This document shows, one piece after another, positions 25,536 to 33,745 of a stretch of 64,000 nt of DNA (position 1 is its first letter; each line of letters starts with the position of its first letter). A program made the position numbers and the translations under genes. The notes beneath the pieces were generated by a model. That model had not been told where the DNA came from. It did no database searches and saw nothing but the letters and a program-made list of their open reading frames with translations. The DNA comes from an uncultured Bacteroidales bacterium (GTDB lineage Bacteria; Bacteroidota; Bacteroidia; Bacteroidales; Muribaculaceae): contig CANPDU010000017.1 of the NCBI GenBank assembly GCA_947573135.1, forward strand, positions 1 to 64,000, given 5' to 3'.

Positions 25536-26258
25536 ATGATGAATGCAATAGAAGTGTTGGCCCAACGACAAGCGGATGAAATTTTGCAATTGGAGACAGC
25601 ATATGCGAATCTGTATCGTGCATATGAACGAGGAAATAGAGACGAGATGATATATGCATATATAGCTGCGGGAAAAGTCAATAACAGTATTCAAGGCTTT
25701 AACGATCATGTATTGAATGAGACCAAACGAGTTTTATATTCTAAAGGAATAATTCCGGACATGCAACCGTGTTTAATATCACTCATTAATAATGATACAA
25801 TATTGAGGTCTAATATTGAAGGTTGTCTTAACGTGTTACAGGCCGAACTTCGATTAAGGGACTTCTATCGTTCTAACAACACATATGCGCAACATCTGTT
25901 ATATCACCCGAATCATACGTTTTTGCAAAATGAAATTTTGTATGAGTACAATGAACGACAACTTAAGGTCGCCGATTTGCTCGCCGTTACCAAATACGCA
26001 ATCAGTGTCGCTGAATCAATAGAACCGAACAATAAAGTCTATGCGCAGGCAAATGGAGCTATTACCGTCTTACAAGGTATAGATGCCATACTCAATAATA
26101 AGCCGGAAGATAAGCCAATAAACAAGATGTTGCATTTGGTAACCAGTTTTATATCTACGGTCGTAAAATCCTCCTTCAAAGACAATGAAGCTAAGCGAGG
26201 AGTAATTGTAACAACAACGATGATTGATTTGGCGATCGACTTTTTTTGTAAGAAATAA
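25536..26258 (+). CDS. Unknown 240-aa helical protein at the head of the cargo
   Basis: I do not recognise this protein. It has no signal peptide or clear membrane segment and looks almost wholly alpha-helical. Noticeable stretches are ADEILQLETAYANLYRAYER, NVLQAELRLRDFYR and a hydrophobic C-terminal part (LVTSFISTVVKSSF, GVIVTTTMIDLAIDFF). It is the first gene inside the left palindrome, 13 bases before the XRE regulator and the restriction-modification genes, in the same direction. Position suggests a link to the defence cassette but nothing more can be said. The start at the second of two adjacent Met codons is equally possible. Confidence 0.75.
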   Translation: MMNAIEVLAQRQADEILQLETAYANLYRAYERGNRDEMIYAYIAAGKVNNSIQGFNDHVLNETKRVLYSKGIIPDMQPCLISLINNDTILRSNIEGCLNVLQAELRLRDFYRSNNTYAQHLLYHPNHTFLQNEILYEYNERQLKVADLLAVTKYAISVAESIEPNNKVYAQANGAITVLQGIDAILNNKPEDKPINKMLHLVTSFISTVVKSSFKDNEAKRGVIVTTTMIDLAIDFFCKK

Positions 26259-26271
26259 TATTAGGCCCGAA

Positions 26272-26472
26272 ATGGATAAGCCAAAGAACCGTATAAAAGA
26301 GGTGCTTGAAGAAAAAGGCATCAAGCAGATATGGTTGGCGGAAAAACTCGGAAAGAGTTTTTGTATCGTCAATTCTTATGTCTGCAACAGACGTCAGCCG
26401 AGTTTGGAGGTGCTGTTCGAAATCGCAGATATTCTCCAAGTTAACCCTAAGGATTTGATTGATGGTAAATAG
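26272..26472 (+). CDS. Small XRE-family helix-turn-helix regulator
   Basis: A 66-aa Cro/CI-type DNA-binding protein: NRIKEVLEEKGIKQIWLAEK is the first two helices, and FCIVNSYVCNRRQPSLEVL covers the recognition helix and the next turn. It ends in LQVNPKDLIDGK, common in stand-alone XRE repressors. ATG 26272 is preferred because the longer frame upstream overlaps the previous gene. It is 9 bases before the methyltransferase/nuclease gene, so it probably acts as the controller of the restriction-modification operon, like C proteins and the small regulators beside type I systems. Confidence 0.9.
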   Translation: MDKPKNRIKEVLEEKGIKQIWLAEKLGKSFCIVNSYVCNRRQPSLEVLFEIADILQVNPKDLIDGK

Positions 26473-26481
26473 AAAGAAGAT

Positions 26482-28530
26482 ATGGCAAAAAAGAATATAC
26501 AATCTGTTGAGCCCAATATTGCAGATTTGGCAAATGGCTGGCTCAAATCCTATAAATTGGATTATAAACTCGAGCAAGAGTCTTTGAATGAAGAGATTGA
26601 CAAAGCTCTTGAAGACTACTTCTCTAAAAATGGAGGTGCAGGAGGTAACCGCCCTGATGCCAAATTGCTTTTACAGGATAAGCTGTTGAACTGGTATCCG
26701 ATACTTATCGAATACAAAGGATATAAAGACAGATTGGAAAAACTTGATGCTCAGGGTCAAGTGGAAAACAAAACGGCTAAAAACGAACCGAATTTCAAGC
26801 ATATCAACTCATATGCCGTAAATGGTGCGGTTCACTATGCGAATGCCATACTTCATCATACCAGCTATACCGACATTATCGCTATCGGTATGACGGGATA
26901 TAAAGATGAATTCGGAGCGTTGCAACATCAAATAGGTGTATACTATGTTTCCAAAAGTAACTTTGGTATCGGACAAAAGGTTGGGGAATATTCGGATTTC
27001 TCATTTTTAGCACCCGCTAATTTTGAAAAATTCATTGAAAAAGTCAATGCTCTTAGCCTGACCCAAGAGGAAATAGACAGAATCAAAGAGCAACGAGAGA
27101 AAGAAATTACTACGAGTTTAACCAAACTCAATAATGAGATTTACCAACACGAGAAAGGGCTTGGCGAGAATGACAGGGTCTATCTGGTTGCAGCATCGAT
27201 CATCGCAACACTCGGTATCCCCAACAAGGTATCTCCGCTTGAAAAGTCGGATTTGAAATCCTCGACAGAGCAAGGTAACACGGATGGCGATATAATAGTG
27301 AGAAAGATTCGTGCGTTTTTGAATGAGAAGCATTTACCTGATGAGAAAAAGCAACTTATCATTCGGACTCTGGAGAACACCTTGACAATGGATAATATCA
27401 ACCGACCGGAAAAAGGGGAAAGCCAACTTAAAAGGGTATTTGTCAAGATTGTAGATACTTTGGGAATTTACTATAAAATTGGCCTTACCACCGACTTTAC
27501 AGGAAAACTCTTCAATGAGATGTACAGTTGGCTCGGCTTTACACAGGACAAATTGAACGATGTTGTCTTGACCCCATCTTATGTTGCAACATTGTTGGTG
27601 AGATTGGCTCGGGTTACCAAAGATTCCTATGTCTGGGATTTTGCCACAGGTTCTGCGGGATTATTGGTTGCGGCAATGAACGAAATGTTAGTTGATGCAA
27701 AAAATAGCATACACTCTCCAGAAGAACTTGCAGCGAAAGAAGCGGGAATCAAGGCCAATCAGCTACTTGGATTGGAATTGCTTCCGAGTATCTATATGCT
27801 GGCTGTTCTCAACATGATTCTGATGGGGGATGGTAGTTCGAATATCTTAAATAAGGACTCGTTAAAGGATTTCGATGGTAATTATGGTTTTGGTGCGGTT
27901 AATGCAAAATTTCCGGCCGATGCTTTTGTCTTGAATCCTCCGTATTCAGCGAATGGCAACGGAATGAATTTCGTTGAAAAGGCCCTTGGAATGATGAATA
28001 AAGGCTATGCAGCTATTATTATTCAAAATTCTGCTGGTTCGGGAAAAGCAAAAGAGTATAACAAAAGGATATTAAAAAAGCATACTCTTCTTGCGAGCAT
28101 CAAGATGCCCATCGACTTATTTATCGGCAAATCGAGTGTACAGACGAATGTCTATGTATTCAGGATTGGCGAAGCTCATACGAAAGATGATATCGTGAAG
28201 TTTATAGACTTTTCGAATGATGGCTATACGCGAACCAATCGTAAAAAGGCCAGCTGTAATCTGCGGGACACCGACCATGCTAAAGAACGCTATGAGGAAG
28301 TCGTAAACTTGGTGCGTTTCGGTAAGAAGAAACTGAAGTATCTTGCGGAAACTGATTATTACGAAGGCACTATCGATCCCAATAATGGAGCCGACTGGAA
28401 TCAATCGGCTCCGATTGACTCCAAACCCACCTTACAGGATTTCAAAAAGACAGTGGCGGATTACATTGCCTGGGAGGTATCAAACCTTTTGAAACATCAA
28501 AAAGTCGAGGAGGACGGCCTGGGAAAATAG
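26482..28530 (+). CDS. BcgI-like fused restriction nuclease/methyltransferase subunit
   Basis: A 682-aa protein with the layout of the BcgI A subunit. An N-terminal PD-(D/E)xK-like nuclease (Asp59 in NRPDAK; Glu77-Tyr-Lys79 in PILIEYKGYK) is followed by a helical part (about 180-330) and a gamma-class N6-adenine methyltransferase with DFATGSAG (386-393, motif I) and NPPY (485-488, motif IV). Such enzymes need a separate specificity subunit, encoded directly downstream. They methylate adenines in a bipartite site and, in type IIB members, cut on both sides of it. The stop is followed at once by an ATG (TAGATG). An ordinary type I HsdM would lack the nuclease. Confidence 0.85.
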   Translation: MAKKNIQSVEPNIADLANGWLKSYKLDYKLEQESLNEEIDKALEDYFSKNGGAGGNRPDAKLLLQDKLLNWYPILIEYKGYKDRLEKLDAQGQVENKTAKNEPNFKHINSYAVNGAVHYANAILHHTSYTDIIAIGMTGYKDEFGALQHQIGVYYVSKSNFGIGQKVGEYSDFSFLAPANFEKFIEKVNALSLTQEEIDRIKEQREKEITTSLTKLNNEIYQHEKGLGENDRVYLVAASIIATLGIPNKVSPLEKSDLKSSTEQGNTDGDIIVRKIRAFLNEKHLPDEKKQLIIRTLENTLTMDNINRPEKGESQLKRVFVKIVDTLGIYYKIGLTTDFTGKLFNEMYSWLGFTQDKLNDVVLTPSYVATLLVRLARVTKDSYVWDFATGSAGLLVAAMNEMLVDAKNSIHSPEELAAKEAGIKANQLLGLELLPSIYMLAVLNMILMGDGSSNILNKDSLKDFDGNYGFGAVNAKFPADAFVLNPPYSANGNGMNFVEKALGMMNKGYAAIIIQNSAGSGKAKEYNKRILKKHTLLASIKMPIDLFIGKSSVQTNVYVFRIGEAHTKDDIVKFIDFSNDGYTRTNRKKASCNLRDTDHAKERYEEVVNLVRFGKKKLKYLAETDYYEGTIDPNNGADWNQSAPIDSKPTLQDFKKTVADYIAWEVSNLLKHQKVEEDGLGK

Positions 28531-29624
28531 ATGCCCCACTTAACAAAAAACTATCCGAGGTTAAGTGGGGAGAATTTACTTTTAAAAGTATTTTCAATAA
28601 AATAGTGCAAGGGCGTAGATTAAAGAAAGATGATCAACTTCCCGGAAATATACCTTTTGTTATGGCTGGTACGACCAATACAGGTGTTGTTAATTACATT
28701 TCTAATCCAGTGTCGAAATTTCCTAAAAATTCGATTACAATAGACATTTTTGGAAATGTGTTTTATCGAGATTATGATTTTGGGGCTGGTGATGATACCG
28801 GAGTGTATTGGAATGATAAAGTGGCATATTCAAAAGAGACGATGCTTTTTCTTACAATATCAATAGGGAAAGCACTTCTGGGAAAGTTTTCTTTTGGAAA
28901 TAAATTGAGAAGTTCGCAAAGTTTGGACTTTAAAATGCAACTTCCAATATTGAAGAATGGCAAAATAGATTTTGAGTTTATAGACAGTTTTATCGCTGAG
29001 CTGGAAGCCCAGCGTATCGCTGAGCTGGAAGCCCATTTAACTGTTACGGGACTTAAAGATTATATTCTGACAGAGGAAGAGCATAGTGCACTTGATAGCT
29101 ATGAAGATTGGGAGTGGAACACATTTAATCTTGAAGACTTATTTGGTAAATCGACACGAGGTAAACGCCTGAAGAGTGCAGATCGAATCCCAGGAGAGTT
29201 GCCTTTTGTAACGGCCGGTGAAGCGGACGAGGGCATATCTGATTTTATCGGAAATGATGTGACTATCTTCTCCGAAAATACTACTACGATAGATATGTTT
29301 GGTTCTGCGAAATATAGGAATTACAAATATGGCGGAGATGATCATGTGGCAGTTGTACATACAGAAACTTTACCCAAATTGGCTTCGATTTTCGTAACAT
29401 CGGCAATCCACAAATCGTCACACAGCGGGCAATTCGATTATTCCAAGAATTTCTATGCAAAAGATGCAGATACGTTGAATATTCAATTGCCATCTCGTGG
29501 TGGGCAGCCCGATTACGAGTGTATGGCAACATTTATTTCTGCCGTACAGAAAATAGTTATAAAAGATGTGGTTCTCTTTGCCGATCGAAAAATCGGAATG
29601 GCTAAAGAAATTGTGAATAAATAA
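28531..29624 (+). CDS. BcgI B-like specificity subunit, out of frame near the start
   Basis: The long frame (open from before 28530 to 29624) encodes two target-recognition domains with parallel beginnings: VKWGEFTFKSIFNKIVQGRR and WEWNTFNLEDLFGKSTRGKR, each followed by PFVxAG. No ATG exists in that frame before the domain starts. The only well-placed ATG, 28531, is in another frame and stops after 24 codons (28603-28605). Adding one A to the A6 run (28545-28550), or a -1 shift at A-AAA-AAC, joins them to give a 364-aa protein beginning MPHLTKKLSEVKWGEF. As it stands the subunit is off, or needs frameshifting, or starts at a non-standard codon. Confidence 0.8.
28534..28570 (+). repeat. Perfect 11-bp inverted repeat around the A6 run
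   Basis: CCCCACTTAAC (28534-28544) and GTTAAGTGGGG (28560-28570) are exact complements. The 15-base loop begins with the A6 tract at which the specificity frame is lost. The repeat starts at the second codon of the ATG-initiated frame. It may form an mRNA hairpin, act as a recombination site or promote slippage. Confidence 0.8.
28991..29035 (+). repeat. 24-bp tandem repeat in the specificity-subunit spacer
   Basis: TATCGCTGAGCTGGAAGCCC plus AGCG (28991-29014) is followed directly by a second copy (29015-29035, 21 of 24 bases identical). In the protein it gives IAELEAQR-IAELEAH in the spacer between the two recognition domains. The period is a multiple of three, so copy-number change keeps the frame. 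Confidence 0.9.
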
Positions 29625-29631
29625 TTCGGAT

Positions 29632-30798
29632 ATGAGTAATAAGAAATATGCTTTTATTGATGAATTCGGAGCTTTCGGATATGATTTTGACAATCAGGGA
29701 TGTACTACCCATTTCTTGATTGGTGCAGTTATCGTAGACGAAAGTAATCTTTCGTTTGTATCGGAACGTGTTGAGAATATTCGAAAAAAATATTTTCAAC
29801 AAGGAGAAATAAAATCCAGTAAAATTGGGAGGAATCACAAAAGGCGTATTTCTATACTGAATGAATTAAAACAACTCCCATTCCACATATTTGCATTTGT
29901 ATGCGACAAACGAAAAATATATGAAAATTCTGGCCTCAGATATAAACAATCATTTTATAAATTCTTGAACAACATCGTGCATCAAGAATTGAGAATTTCA
30001 TATAATAACTTAACGATTACTGCAGATGAAGTTGGAGGTAATGATTATCTTCAATCTTTTGCAACGTATGTTAGGTCAAAGGAGATCCCTCTTGATTTAT
30101 TCGACAATAGCTTATTTAGGTTCGAGAATAGTAAACATAGCATTATTATACAAGTCGCTGACATTGTATGTGGTTCCCTTGCATATAATTATGATATAAG
30201 GAAAATATCAGAATCTGACGGTTATAATTACAAATCCGTATTAGGGGATAAGATATTAAGAATAAAAGAGTTTCCTGAAACTTTTGATACATTCAATGTT
30301 TCTCAAAATGACTTGAATCCTGAGTATAATCCACAAATTGCTGATATCTGTTATAGGAAAGCTAAACATTTTATAGAAACGCATAATAATACAGACGATG
30401 ACGAAGTCAAACAGCAAATTGCAGTATTGAATTATCTCCTATTTAGATTTATGAACAAATCGCCAAGGAAATATATTCCCACACAAGAACTTATTACCCA
30501 ATTAGTGTACTTAGGATATGATAGATTATCACTTCAGACTTTTCGGAATAAAATCATAGCAAAACTTCGGGATAATGAAGTAATAATATCAAGTAGCTCT
30601 GGTGGATATAAAATACCATCAACAGAAAAAGAATTGTATGACTTTGTCAATCATGGCAAAAGTATTATCATGCCAATGTTAGCACGATTAAAAACTTGTA
30701 ACGATGTTATTCGGATGGGAACGAATGGTGAAATAAATTTATTCGAAAAAGCAGAATATCATTCACTTGCAAAAATGTTTGATACAACTGAGCAGTAA
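29632..30798 (+). CDS. DUF3800-domain protein with C-terminal helical extension
   Basis: A 388-aa protein. The N-terminal half is a DUF3800 domain: KYAFIDEFGAFGYD (the family FIDESG-type acidic motif), HFLIGAVIVDES, a central ITADEVGGNDY and the QVADIVCGSLAYNYD block with its conserved Asp. The fold is predicted to be RNase H-like with acidic active-site residues, but the substrate is not established. Residues about 250-388 look like a winged helix plus helices (TQELITQLVYLGYDRLSLQT; RDNEVIISSSSGGYKIP) and may bind nucleic acid or a partner. It starts 7 bases after the specificity gene and is part of the same operon. Confidence 0.82.
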   Translation: MSNKKYAFIDEFGAFGYDFDNQGCTTHFLIGAVIVDESNLSFVSERVENIRKKYFQQGEIKSSKIGRNHKRRISILNELKQLPFHIFAFVCDKRKIYENSGLRYKQSFYKFLNNIVHQELRISYNNLTITADEVGGNDYLQSFATYVRSKEIPLDLFDNSLFRFENSKHSIIIQVADIVCGSLAYNYDIRKISESDGYNYKSVLGDKILRIKEFPETFDTFNVSQNDLNPEYNPQIADICYRKAKHFIETHNNTDDDEVKQQIAVLNYLLFRFMNKSPRKYIPTQELITQLVYLGYDRLSLQTFRNKIIAKLRDNEVIISSSSGGYKIPSTEKELYDFVNHGKSIIMPMLARLKTCNDVIRMGTNGEINLFEKAEYHSLAKMFDTTEQ

Positions 30799-30811
30799 AT
30801 AATATACATGT

Positions 30812-31933
30812 ATGATGGACTTCAACGAATACATACGCCAAAGCGAGCCTCAGAAGCGGGAGAAGGGTTACGCATGGCAGACCGCAATCGGGTTGCAGGC
30901 CGTCGATGGCTTGAAGCCTTCCGATTACTTGATTGAGACCGCACGTAAAGACATTGAGGGCGAGATTACAATCGACGAAGCCGAACAGCTTATAAAGAGC
31001 TATTACCAATCGAAAGAGGCACATACACCCGAAGATGCAGAAATCCACGAAGCGGATATGGCATCGACCAACATCCGTCGACTTCTTACCGAGAAAACGT
31101 TTGCTTTTACACTTGTCGGACTGACATCAATTCATCGTCGGATTTTTGACGGAGTTTTCAAATTTGCGGGACAAATTCGCGACTACAACATTACCAAAAA
31201 GGAATGGGTGCTGCGCGGCGATACGGTGCTGTATGTTTCTGCTTCAGATATCCGCAAAGCGATCGAATACGACTTGGAACAAGAACGCCAGTTCGACTAT
31301 TCAAAAGTGGACAGGAATGGATTAGTGAGTCACATAGCCAAGTTCGTATCGGGATTGTGGCAAATCCATCCGTTCGGCGAGGGAAATACCCGAACAACTG
31401 CCGTGTTCACGATTCTCTATCTACGTTCTATGGGTTTTGACGTAACAAACGACCTGTTTGCCAATCATTCGTGGTATTTCCGTAATGCGCTGGTACGTGC
31501 CAACTACCAGAACGTACAGAAAGGCATCATGCGTAATTCCGAATATTTGGAGCGGTTCTTTCGTAATCTTCTGTTGGGTGAAAAGAATGAATTGCGGAAT
31601 CGATATATGGTGGTTAATGCTCCGGAAGAGCTGACAGCAAAACAAGCCCAGCAAATCGACCGTACAAGTACCGAACAACCTGCCGTACAAGTAACCGAAC
31701 AAGTTCTCGCTTTGTTATTAGCTTTGTCAAACGAACAATTATCGTTAAAAGTATTGATGGAGAAAGTCGGCCTGAAACATCGTCCAACATTTTTGGAGAA
31801 TTATATAAGCCCCGCTTCCAAAGCCGGTTTTCTCAAGGTGCTATATCCCGACAAGCCCAATCACCCGAGACAAAAATATCTGCTTACGGCAAAAGGGCTG
31901 GCTCTATATAACGAAATAAAGAAAATGCAATAG
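30812..31933 (+). CDS. Fic-domain protein with N-terminal VbhA-like region
   Basis: A 373-aa Fic protein. The active-site loop is HPFGEGNTR (186-194), close to HxFx(D/E)GNxR; the usual Gly or Lys after Asn is Thr. The family transfers AMP or another phosphate-linked group to a target hydroxyl. Residues 24-65 (QTAIGLQAVDGLKP...EGEITIDEAEQL) resemble a VbhA-type antitoxin helix fused in front, with an Asp where the inhibitory Glu is expected. The C-terminus (about 290-373) is a winged helix (LSLKVLMEKVGLKHRPTFLE). It is the last gene of the cassette, 13 bases after the DUF3800 gene. Fic genes are often found in type I restriction operons. Confidence 0.88.
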   Translation: MMDFNEYIRQSEPQKREKGYAWQTAIGLQAVDGLKPSDYLIETARKDIEGEITIDEAEQLIKSYYQSKEAHTPEDAEIHEADMASTNIRRLLTEKTFAFTLVGLTSIHRRIFDGVFKFAGQIRDYNITKKEWVLRGDTVLYVSASDIRKAIEYDLEQERQFDYSKVDRNGLVSHIAKFVSGLWQIHPFGEGNTRTTAVFTILYLRSMGFDVTNDLFANHSWYFRNALVRANYQNVQKGIMRNSEYLERFFRNLLLGEKNELRNRYMVVNAPEELTAKQAQQIDRTSTEQPAVQVTEQVLALLLALSNEQLSLKVLMEKVGLKHRPTFLENYISPASKAGFLKVLYPDKPNHPRQKYLLTAKGLALYNEIKKMQ

Positions 31934-32611: not shown

Positions 32612-33745
32612 TTAGTCGAACAACCCGTTTACTAAATTGACCGCATCATCCTTTTTCTGATTGATGATTTTGGCGTACACCTGCGTCATCTTGACATCGG
32701 CATGGCCGAGCAGTTTCGAGGTGGTATAGAGGTCTGCACCCAATGTAAGCATCATCGTCGCGAACGTGTGGCGGCTCGTGTGAAATGAAAACCGCTTATC
32801 TATTCCAGCCGCTTTCGCCCAAGGTTTGAGAAGTGTGTTTACCATCGTTGGGCTCGGCAAATCGAATACATGGTCTTCCGACGTCTTCTCTCCGCGTTCC
32901 GGCATCCACTTCAAGGCTTCGGGGGAAAGCGGTAGATAAATCGGCTCTTTGGTCTTTTGCATGGATACAGCCAAACGGTATTGTCCTCTATCGACGAAGA
33001 CATCTTTCCACTTCAAACTGATGATATCGCTTATCCGCAGTCCGCAGAAGCAGGAGAACAAATAGGCCTGTTTTACAGCATCGTTTTTCATCGGAGTAGC
33101 AATCAATGCTCTAACCTCTTCGATGGTCATATACGACCGCTTACTCTCCGGCAGACGGATTTTATCCGAATTGTTGATTTTGGTAAAAGGATTGACTTTT
33201 ATAATTTCTGCTCGCACGGCTGCATTCAAAGCTCCGTTCAGAATGCGGTAATAGGTGTGTAGCGTAAAATTAGACACTTGTTTGCCCTTCGGTCGATATT
33301 CAGTCAATAGATAGTCGATATACTCTTGACAGAACGCCTTGTCGATCTGATCCATCGTTACCCGTTCTCCTGCATAATCTTTCAGGATGCGGATAGTAAC
33401 TTGGATTTGGTTTCCATCTTTCTTTCCTCGCTTCGCCTGATTCTCTTTGTAGGTATCCATCCAGTCCACAAGAAAAACCTTTTCACGGGTTTCGATACCC
33501 GCTTCACCGTTGGTAAGTTGAATGATCCGTTTCGATTTGATGGCATTGGCTGCCGCCATAGTCGTTTGGTTCCGCACACGGGCATTATTATCCGTTTCGG
33601 GGATAAGATACATTTTCAGATACTCATATGTCCGTTTACCGTCCCGATAGATATCCAAATACAGACTTTTGTTTCCATTGGCCAACTCTTTCATCCGAAG
33701 ACGAATCGGCTCTTTGACTTTTGCGGGCTTCTTTACTCGTGGCAT
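32612..33745 (-). CDS. Tyrosine recombinase (integrase) of the island
   Basis: A 377-aa phage-type integrase of the Bacteroidetes mobile-element group. An Arm/SAM-like N-terminal half (about 1-215; SLYLDIYRDGKRTYEYLKMY) precedes the catalytic domain with Arg in CFCGLRISDI, His-x-x-Arg in HTSRHTFA, His in LLGHADVKMT and the nucleophile Tyr in TQVYAKI. All catalytic residues are present. It lies about 215 bases inside the right attachment-like repeat and is transcribed away from it, toward the cargo. It would catalyse integration and excision at AAATCTGG. Confidence 0.95.
   Translation of the reverse strand: MPRVKKPAKVKEPIRLRMKELANGNKSLYLDIYRDGKRTYEYLKMYLIPETDNNARVRNQTTMAAANAIKSKRIIQLTNGEAGIETREKVFLVDWMDTYKENQAKRGKKDGNQIQVTIRILKDYAGERVTMDQIDKAFCQEYIDYLLTEYRPKGKQVSNFTLHTYYRILNGALNAAVRAEIIKVNPFTKINNSDKIRLPESKRSYMTIEEVRALIATPMKNDAVKQAYLFSCFCGLRISDIISLKWKDVFVDRGQYRLAVSMQKTKEPIYLPLSPEALKWMPERGEKTSEDHVFDLPSPTMVNTLLKPWAKAAGIDKRFSFHTSRHTFATMMLTLGADLYTTSKLLGHADVKMTQVYAKIINQKKDDAVNLVNGLFD

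Follow-up and report, generated by a model that had tools for sequence, protein, structure and literature searches.

The locus lies on the forward strand of the window (the whole 64,000-nt stretch of DNA that we analysed) and consists of a gene for a restriction-methylation subunit, RM, followed by a specificity module, S, in a different frame (Table 1). Domain searches with the RM protein gave matches to N6_Mtase (PF02384, E 4.5e-21) and to the PADLOC model REase_MTase_IIG (E 2.6e-243), together with a weak match for the nuclease domain (VRR_NUC, 8.9e-4, under the cut-off), and RM has the combination of nuclease and gamma-type N6 methyltransferase expected of a type IIB (BcgI-like) RM subunit. 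The S module contains two stretches of Methylase_S (PF01420) as well as a Specificity_II match, i.e. it has the two recognition domains of a type IIB S subunit. Its AlphaFold model has a mean pLDDT of 91, and a Foldseek search with this model gave type I S subunits as the best solved matches, with the S subunit of BsaXI at rank 10 (E 1e-6); a sequence search of the PDB returned no relative at E 0.01. Just 5′ of RM is a small Cro/C1-type HTH gene (26224–26472), which may encode a controller protein, and 13 of the fetched loci contain, at some position, a gene for a related HTH protein. Directly 3′ of S lies a DUF3800 gene (29632–30798) with a weak PADLOC match (PDC-M04A), a relative of which was present only in L032 and L033 among the fetched loci; it is followed by a gene for a Fic-domain protein (30812–31933) with a strong match to the PADLOC candidate PDC-S72 and, on the opposite strand, by a tyrosine recombinase gene (32612–33745).

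Table 1. Features of the RM–S locus in the window
Feature	Position	Strand	Remark
RM gene	26482..28530	+	682 aa, type IIG/IIB-like restriction-methylation subunit
AGGAGG, Shine–Dalgarno-like	28508..28513	+	7 nt 5′ of heptamer; possible frameshift stimulator
Slippery heptamer G_GGA_AAA (GGGAAAA), RM frame	28521..28527	+	ends at RM stop codon
S module, −1 frame, two target-recognition domains	28521..29624	+	S part of predicted 1047-aa RM–S fusion
RM (zero-frame) stop codon TAG	28528..28530	+	abuts heptamer 3′ end
6-nt spacer	28528..28533	+	between heptamer and hairpin
Hairpin 5′ arm CCCCACTTAAC	28534..28544	+	11-bp stem
Hairpin loop, 15 nt	28545..28559	+	first six bases are the A6 run
Hairpin 3′ arm GTTAAGTGGGG	28560..28570	+	11-bp stem

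S occupies the −1 frame with respect to RM, and this frame is open from 5′ of the RM stop codon to the end of the module. As an earlier note on this DNA had recognized, it has no usable start: the first ATG, GTG or TTG that follows the last in-frame stop upstream is GTG 28605, which is residue 29 of an S reading begun at 28521 and lies inside the first recognition domain, so that the separate S with its own start that is typical of type IIB systems is absent from the window. In the AlphaFold model the hairpin-encoded residues form the first helix of recognition domain 1 and run on into its first strand, and translation from GTG 28605 would remove both of these elements. An ATG directly abuts the RM stop (28531–28533), and the earlier observation that it is not in the S frame and runs for 24 codons to a stop holds, the frame in question being that of RM itself.

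At the end of RM we found a heptamer of the form X_XXY_YYZ in the zero frame, which is followed at a short distance by an inverted repeat; both had escaped the earlier note, which had concentrated on the A6 run (28545–28550) and the motif A-AAA-AAC (28545–28551). These are located correctly to the base and fall within the loop of the hairpin. Folding of the segment 28529–28620 gave a z-score of −3.5, with one of 200 shuffled sequences folding as well, and no Rfam family was found over 28400–28700.

We then compared this junction with those of relatives. A scan with RM over one genome per species provided the best 80 of 217 relatives (76–97% identical in the best segment), and a scan over 397 genomes of the family provided 30 loci, the window itself among them. 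As the patterns used in the one-genome-per-species search lie inside RM, the choice of these loci is independent of the junction. With ten family loci (L003–L012) and the window counted once, this gave 91 junctions behind a strong RM match; L001 and L002 (the window itself) and L120 (a broken RM match) were dropped. According to their titles the records come from Bacteroidota, Bacillota, Pseudomonadota, Campylobacterales, cyanobacteria and others, many being metagenome bins for which single placements may err, and the loci are related to one another, so that the counts given below are of non-independent events. More distantly, 395 genomes of the phylum searched at E 1e-40 gave two matches besides the window's own genome (L121 and L122, 31–32% identical).

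An in-register heptamer was present at 83 of the 91 junctions (GGGAAAA in 49, GGGAAAG in 32, AAAAAAA and AAATTTT in one each), and all 83 also carry a hairpin downstream. The eight junctions without this full cassette are L093, which still has the hairpin, with an imperfect heptamer (G_GAA_AAG), L010, which has a separate S with an ATG, and L008, L009, L011, L012, L097 and L098, in which RM continues in frame into S. The heptamer is kept in loci whose RM identity ranges from 97 to 45%, and the cassette also occurs in phage or viral records (L113, L116, L118 and L119) and on an Acinetobacter plasmid (L114). Where the heptamer differs, it does so at the corresponding place, as illustrated by A_AAA_AAA in L068, A_AAT_TTT in L007 and AAAAAAG in E. 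coli L112.

The codons used at the site follow the heptamer closely. RM ends in XXG GGA AAA or XXG GGA AAG at the 81 G_GGA_AAR loci, with the stop codon directly after the heptamer in 74, one codon later in five, and four and eight codons later in the remaining two. The glycine at the shift site is encoded by GGA in 79/79 aligned loci that have glycine there, compared with 387 of 1330 glycine codons elsewhere over the final 250 codons of these RM genes. Similarly, the leucine codon 5′ of it has G as its last base in 72 of 73 cases, compared with 544/1577 elsewhere in the aligned stretch, the sole exception being the locus with the AAAAAAA heptamer; in the seven of 81 loci where the preceding residue is not leucine, its codon ends in G too. 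Two other RM columns have a codon-identity excess at least as large as that of the GGA column. As a null, we scored codon boundaries inside the RM genes, omitting L003 (junction identical with that of L080) and L116 (match cut early): an in-register heptamer was found at 504 of 48600 boundaries and a heptamer followed after 6 nt by a stem at one, whereas at the junction, with the same strict stem score, heptamer and stem both passed in 78 of 90 loci (at least 65% identity). Five of the 12 failures were each due to one mismatched pair (L035, L072, L088, L089 and L114), and the others to a displaced stop (L051), a shorter stem (L112), the heptamer (L093), the cut RM match (L116) and, in three, to loci that count as in frame, among them L120 with its broken RM match. 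A separate candidate association, between the AAG-ending heptamer and a missing tRNA-Lys(CUU), was rejected: in 64 genomes (77 with a GGGAAAR cassette, less 13 set aside because the pattern found no tRNA-Lys) it gave an uncorrected Fisher p of 0.014, and it was unsupported on the tree, where three independent pairs were available on the starred branches.

The hairpin is conserved in geometry and varies in sequence. A 6-nt spacer, 11-nt arms and a 15-nt loop with at least nine of the 11 pairs formed were found in 73/83 cassette loci, all 11 pairs being present in 67, and the loop sequence differs among loci. For these 73 loci mean pairing was 0.99 at spacer 6 and 0.21–0.65 at the other spacers from 0 to 30, a comparison that is to be read with the loci having been picked by pairing at spacer 6. 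In the stem alignment of 72 sequences, from which L003 was again omitted, 99.1% of cells were paired, falling to 35–52% when one arm was slid by 1–3 columns, and RNAalifold returned the identical stem plus one extra pair. The stem covaries, with changes on both sides at four pairs (1.4 in shuffles) and in 31 cells (3.2 in shuffles, 0/500 as high), so that a stable, covarying structure lies a few nucleotides downstream of the heptamer, as at a −1 frameshift site. In the ten cassette loci that deviate from this geometry a spacer of 5–6 nt is followed by another stem, which in L004, L006, L007, L045 and L103 is quite different in sequence and loop length. In L035 the usual TGG of the 3′ arm is replaced by TAG, which places an S-frame stop inside the hairpin, and this is likely to be a dead copy.

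Upstream of the site, Shine–Dalgarno-type tetramers were present at −22 to −6 in 55 of the 83 cassette loci, at −38 to −22 in seven and at −54 to −38 in 71. Similarity to the Shine–Dalgarno sequence is raised 6–10 nt upstream of the site, and a second peak at 42–43 nt is unrelated to the site. A Shine–Dalgarno-like stimulator of frameshifting is at most suggested by this pattern, which is confounded by the acidic residues that the same region encodes.

Directly behind the site it is the −1 frame that is coding, as the first S domain is in this frame in 83/83 cassette loci. The −1 frame closes after 337–545 codons in 69 loci, runs off the contig in nine and closes after 15–204 codons in five, which are probably dead copies. 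Between the heptamer and a conserved tryptophan, the S frame has no ATG, GTG or TTG in 46 of the 83 loci, only GTG or TTG in 20 and some ATG in 17. The S-frame codon overlapping the RM stop is ATA in 38 (including the window), GTA in 29, ATG in eight, where the stop is TGA, and another codon in eight. These figures bear on whether ribosomes might terminate after RM and re-initiate in the −1 frame, which would give a separate S chain and leave the hairpin merely to position or slow the ribosomes. The eight overlapping ATG codons are in keeping with such coupling, as is the arrangement in 17 distant relatives with a separate S (24–42% identical), where an S-frame ATG lies within 14 nt of the RM stop in 17/17 and takes the form of an ATGA overlap in five. 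However, the overlapping codon in the window is ATA, most of the loci have no start codon at this place, and re-initiation leaves the heptamer, the codon choice and the fixed spacer unexplained, so that we consider it improbable. In the same 17 relatives no heptamer ended within 11 nt of the RM stop, a heptamer-like TTTAAAT being present in two, where it ends 12 and 33 nt before the stop.

Two further explanations, which we consider highly improbable, place the frame change in the nucleic acid. In the first, transcriptional slippage on the A run of the heptamer would produce mixed mRNAs, some encoding a fusion; runs long enough to bring this to mind exist in L006 (six A) and, with seven consecutive A, in L068 and E. 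coli L112. In 80/83 loci, however, the heptamer has only GGG and three or four A (the others being L006, L068 and, with AAATTTT, L007), and, judging from known −1 sites, tandem tRNA slippage is what the register of the codons, the spacer of 6 nt and the hairpin indicate. The second, which the earlier note had proposed, is a phase-variable switch at A6, with S off in the present sequence and on when the run gains a base, and both the presence of A6 and the lack of a start in the present S frame had pointed that way. Across the relatives the length of the run varies while the S frame is constant, even though 13 of the 83 loci have six A in the loop, and the two nearest relatives, L032 and L033 (RM 97 and 96% identical), share the same A6 while differing in the sequence behind the hairpin. 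Variation in tract length thus does not change the frame, which speaks against the switch. That the break is an assembly error, for which the earlier note had allowed in the form of a uniform A7, or a decayed pseudogene, as the homopolymer at the site might suggest, is the least probable of all, given that the same architecture recurs across many species and assemblies, both recognition domains are intact in the window and the stem covaries.

Having weighed these alternatives, we conclude from the sequence comparisons that RM and S are very probably joined by programmed −1 ribosomal frameshifting in a BcgI-like (type IIB/IIG) system. The earlier note had offered a −1 shift as one of its readings; the kind of event stands, while its place, A-AAA-AAC, belongs to the loop, where AAAAAAC occurs in 5/83 loci, the conserved site being G_GGA_AAA. 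In the proposed mechanism, a ribosome finishing RM would hold the Gly GGA and Lys AAA codons of this heptamer in its P and A sites as the hairpin 6 nt downstream hinders it. A fraction of ribosomes would then slip back by one base (to GGG AAA), miss the RM stop and read through the hairpin into S, producing an RM–S fusion of 1047 aa (…GLGK-IDAPLN…WGEF…; …GLGKIDAPLNKKLSEVKWGEF) in place of the free S starting MPHLTKKL that had been envisaged previously. The remaining ribosomes would stop at TAG and release RM of 682 aa, and the frequency of shifting would set the ratio of RM to RM–S. One RM and one RM–S might then pair, which would bring together two catalytic subunits and two recognition domains, as in the (RM)2S enzymes BcgI and BsaXI, with S covalently attached to one of the RM chains.

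A natural comparison of the replaceability of the site is provided by E. coli and phage copies. The RM of E. coli L112 and that of Escherichia phage L113 are 98% identical over 657 aa, and their DNA is alike up to about 43 nt 5′ of the stop; beyond this point no alignment crosses the junction and domain 1, and only short stretches of similarity reappear deeper in S. The two unlike junctions have the same layout, i.e. A_AAA_AAG in L112 and G_GGA_AAG in L113, each followed by 6 nt and a hairpin. Among 29 E. coli genomes with a match we read five, of which L112, L123 and L124 have the first kind of junction (A_AAA_AAG) and L125 and L126 the second (G_GGA_AAG); in the stem of L124 a C to T change retains a G–U pair. 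The annotation of S in these five records begins inside recognition domain 1 in four and is an incomplete pseudogene with a second piece in one, examples of such RefSeq listings being L126:3587–4048 and L112:5117–5716, and in one of the five an IS1 transposase inserted in S is marked as a programmed frameshift. In addition, the E. coli prophage L112 has 16–17 perfect copies of an 8-nt unit, GCGGACTC, between its S recognition domains (L112:5580–5714), and its second recognition domain is in another frame, which makes this repeat a candidate phase-variable switch at a place other than A6.

The number of recognition domains differs between the ways in which RM and S are connected. Among cassette loci with at least 1200 nt behind RM, two domain matches were found in 72/74 and three in 2/74, and 72 of the 74 keep every match in the −1 frame, L079 and L085 being broken later. 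By contrast, relatives with an in-frame RM to S reading had one recognition domain in 11/11, with chains extending 182–272 aa past the RM match, nine of these 11 being judged from about 1500 nt behind RM. Two of them, L097 and L098 (RM 77% identical), branch from within the cassette loci on the RM tree; they lack the heptamer, the hairpin and one recognition domain, and RM reads straight into a single domain. The 17 separate-S relatives had two matches in 11, three in four and one in two (L015, of which 261 nt were seen, and L027), and L027 may be an exception to the rule on domain number. The quick RM tree, which has long branches and left out L001, L002, L003, L015, L019, L021, L035, L116, L120 and rows with less than 450 aa of RM, places L006 and L007 beside in-frame and ATG types and fits one or several origins of the cassette.

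These counts can be set against the stoichiometry of known enzymes. Enzymes of the BcgI kind are described as (RM)2S (PMC11997821, PMC3874165), which with two recognition domains in S means one RM per recognition domain, and a fully fused two-domain RM–S would therefore have too few RM. A frameshift yielding RM together with RM–S would solve this shortage, and the domain counts (one in in-frame loci and two in cassette loci) fit such a pair. Published work on fusions bears on this: an engineered EcoKI M–S fusion is reported to be active and to need extra M in vitro (PMC3510504), and an M fused to half an S is described as dimerizing and active. Against the present reading, the CC398-1 MS fusion is stated to do without supplementary M in vitro, an outcome that its authors attribute to a clipped fragment that co-purifies and remains attached (both PMC6158711).

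The locus shares features with several characterized systems. Like BcgI and BsaXI (type IIB, (RM)2S), it has an RM fusion subunit and a two-domain S encoded by neighbouring genes; however, in the bcgIA/bcgIB-like pair L117, S has its own ATG overlapping the end of RM, whereas the S of the window lacks one and would be joined to RM by frameshifting. With dnaX (tau/gamma) and cassettes of the IS3 family it has in common a slippery heptamer, a downstream structure and two products that differ in length but begin with the same N-terminus, the reported frameshift ratio of dnaX being about 1:1 (PMC5009743). In contrast with both, the host gene here is a restriction enzyme; the predicted frameshift product is the longer one, as is described for a few dnaX genes in the same source. 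AloI, CjeI, the engineered EcoKI M–S and the CC398-1 fusion of M to half an S likewise have RM or M covalently joined to S, but in a single frame, whereas in the present system recoding would fuse S to a fraction of the RM chains; AloI and CjeI are described as in-frame RMS proteins with two recognition domains, which counts against the present reading, and as a stoichiometry puzzle (PMC3874165). Finally, Helicobacter pylori HpyUM032XIII is BcgI-like and has a frame break that alters how many recognition domains an S contains (PMC4450513), but that break is described as a homopolymer G-tract inside S, between the domains, whereas in the window the frame breaks between RM and S, at a conserved recoding signal.

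In searches of a full-text library of open-access papers we found no programmed frameshift between the M and S of a restriction system, and restriction terms in a frameshifting review and in a genome-wide frameshift survey likewise led to no M/S case. The nearest case was a C-protein/REase fusion for which frameshifting is said to have been suspected and went unseen in E. coli (PMC3850674). Restriction systems of this sort and −1 frameshifting are each known, and their combination appears to be new within the literature searched.

As to how efficient the site might be, G_GG.A_AA.G and A_AA.A_AA.G are reported as two of the three −1 motifs that work best in E. coli (PMC4066793), and each of the five E. 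coli records that we read has one or other of them. For the G_GG.A_AA.A of the window the same paper is mixed: its introduction calls the motif inefficient in E. coli and it is absent from the 21 candidate motifs listed there, whereas it appears elsewhere in the paper among the ‘more efficient’ motifs used by IS elements. As a result of these mixed reports, which concern E. coli and not the host of the window, we hold both frameshifting itself and a near-1:1 ratio with slightly less confidence, and re-initiation with slightly more.

A broader reading, towards which we lean slightly, is that a type IIB-like clade, with members in several bacterial phyla, on a plasmid and in prophages or phages, relies on programmed −1 frameshifting to control stoichiometry, making RM and RM–S at close to 1:1 and thus one catalytic subunit per recognition domain. 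The cassette would be replaceable together with S, as in L112 and L113, and loss of frameshifting would go with the loss of one domain. If programmed frameshifting does operate here, the S of this family would often be mis-annotated. The known non-mobile bacterial genes that use −1 frameshifting make up, to our knowledge, a short list, to which a widespread and easily tested class would be added. It would also explain how S can be fused to RM while a second, S-free RM is still supplied, and the stoichiometry question raised by AloI and CjeI would become testable by comparison of the frameshifted with the in-frame members of the family.
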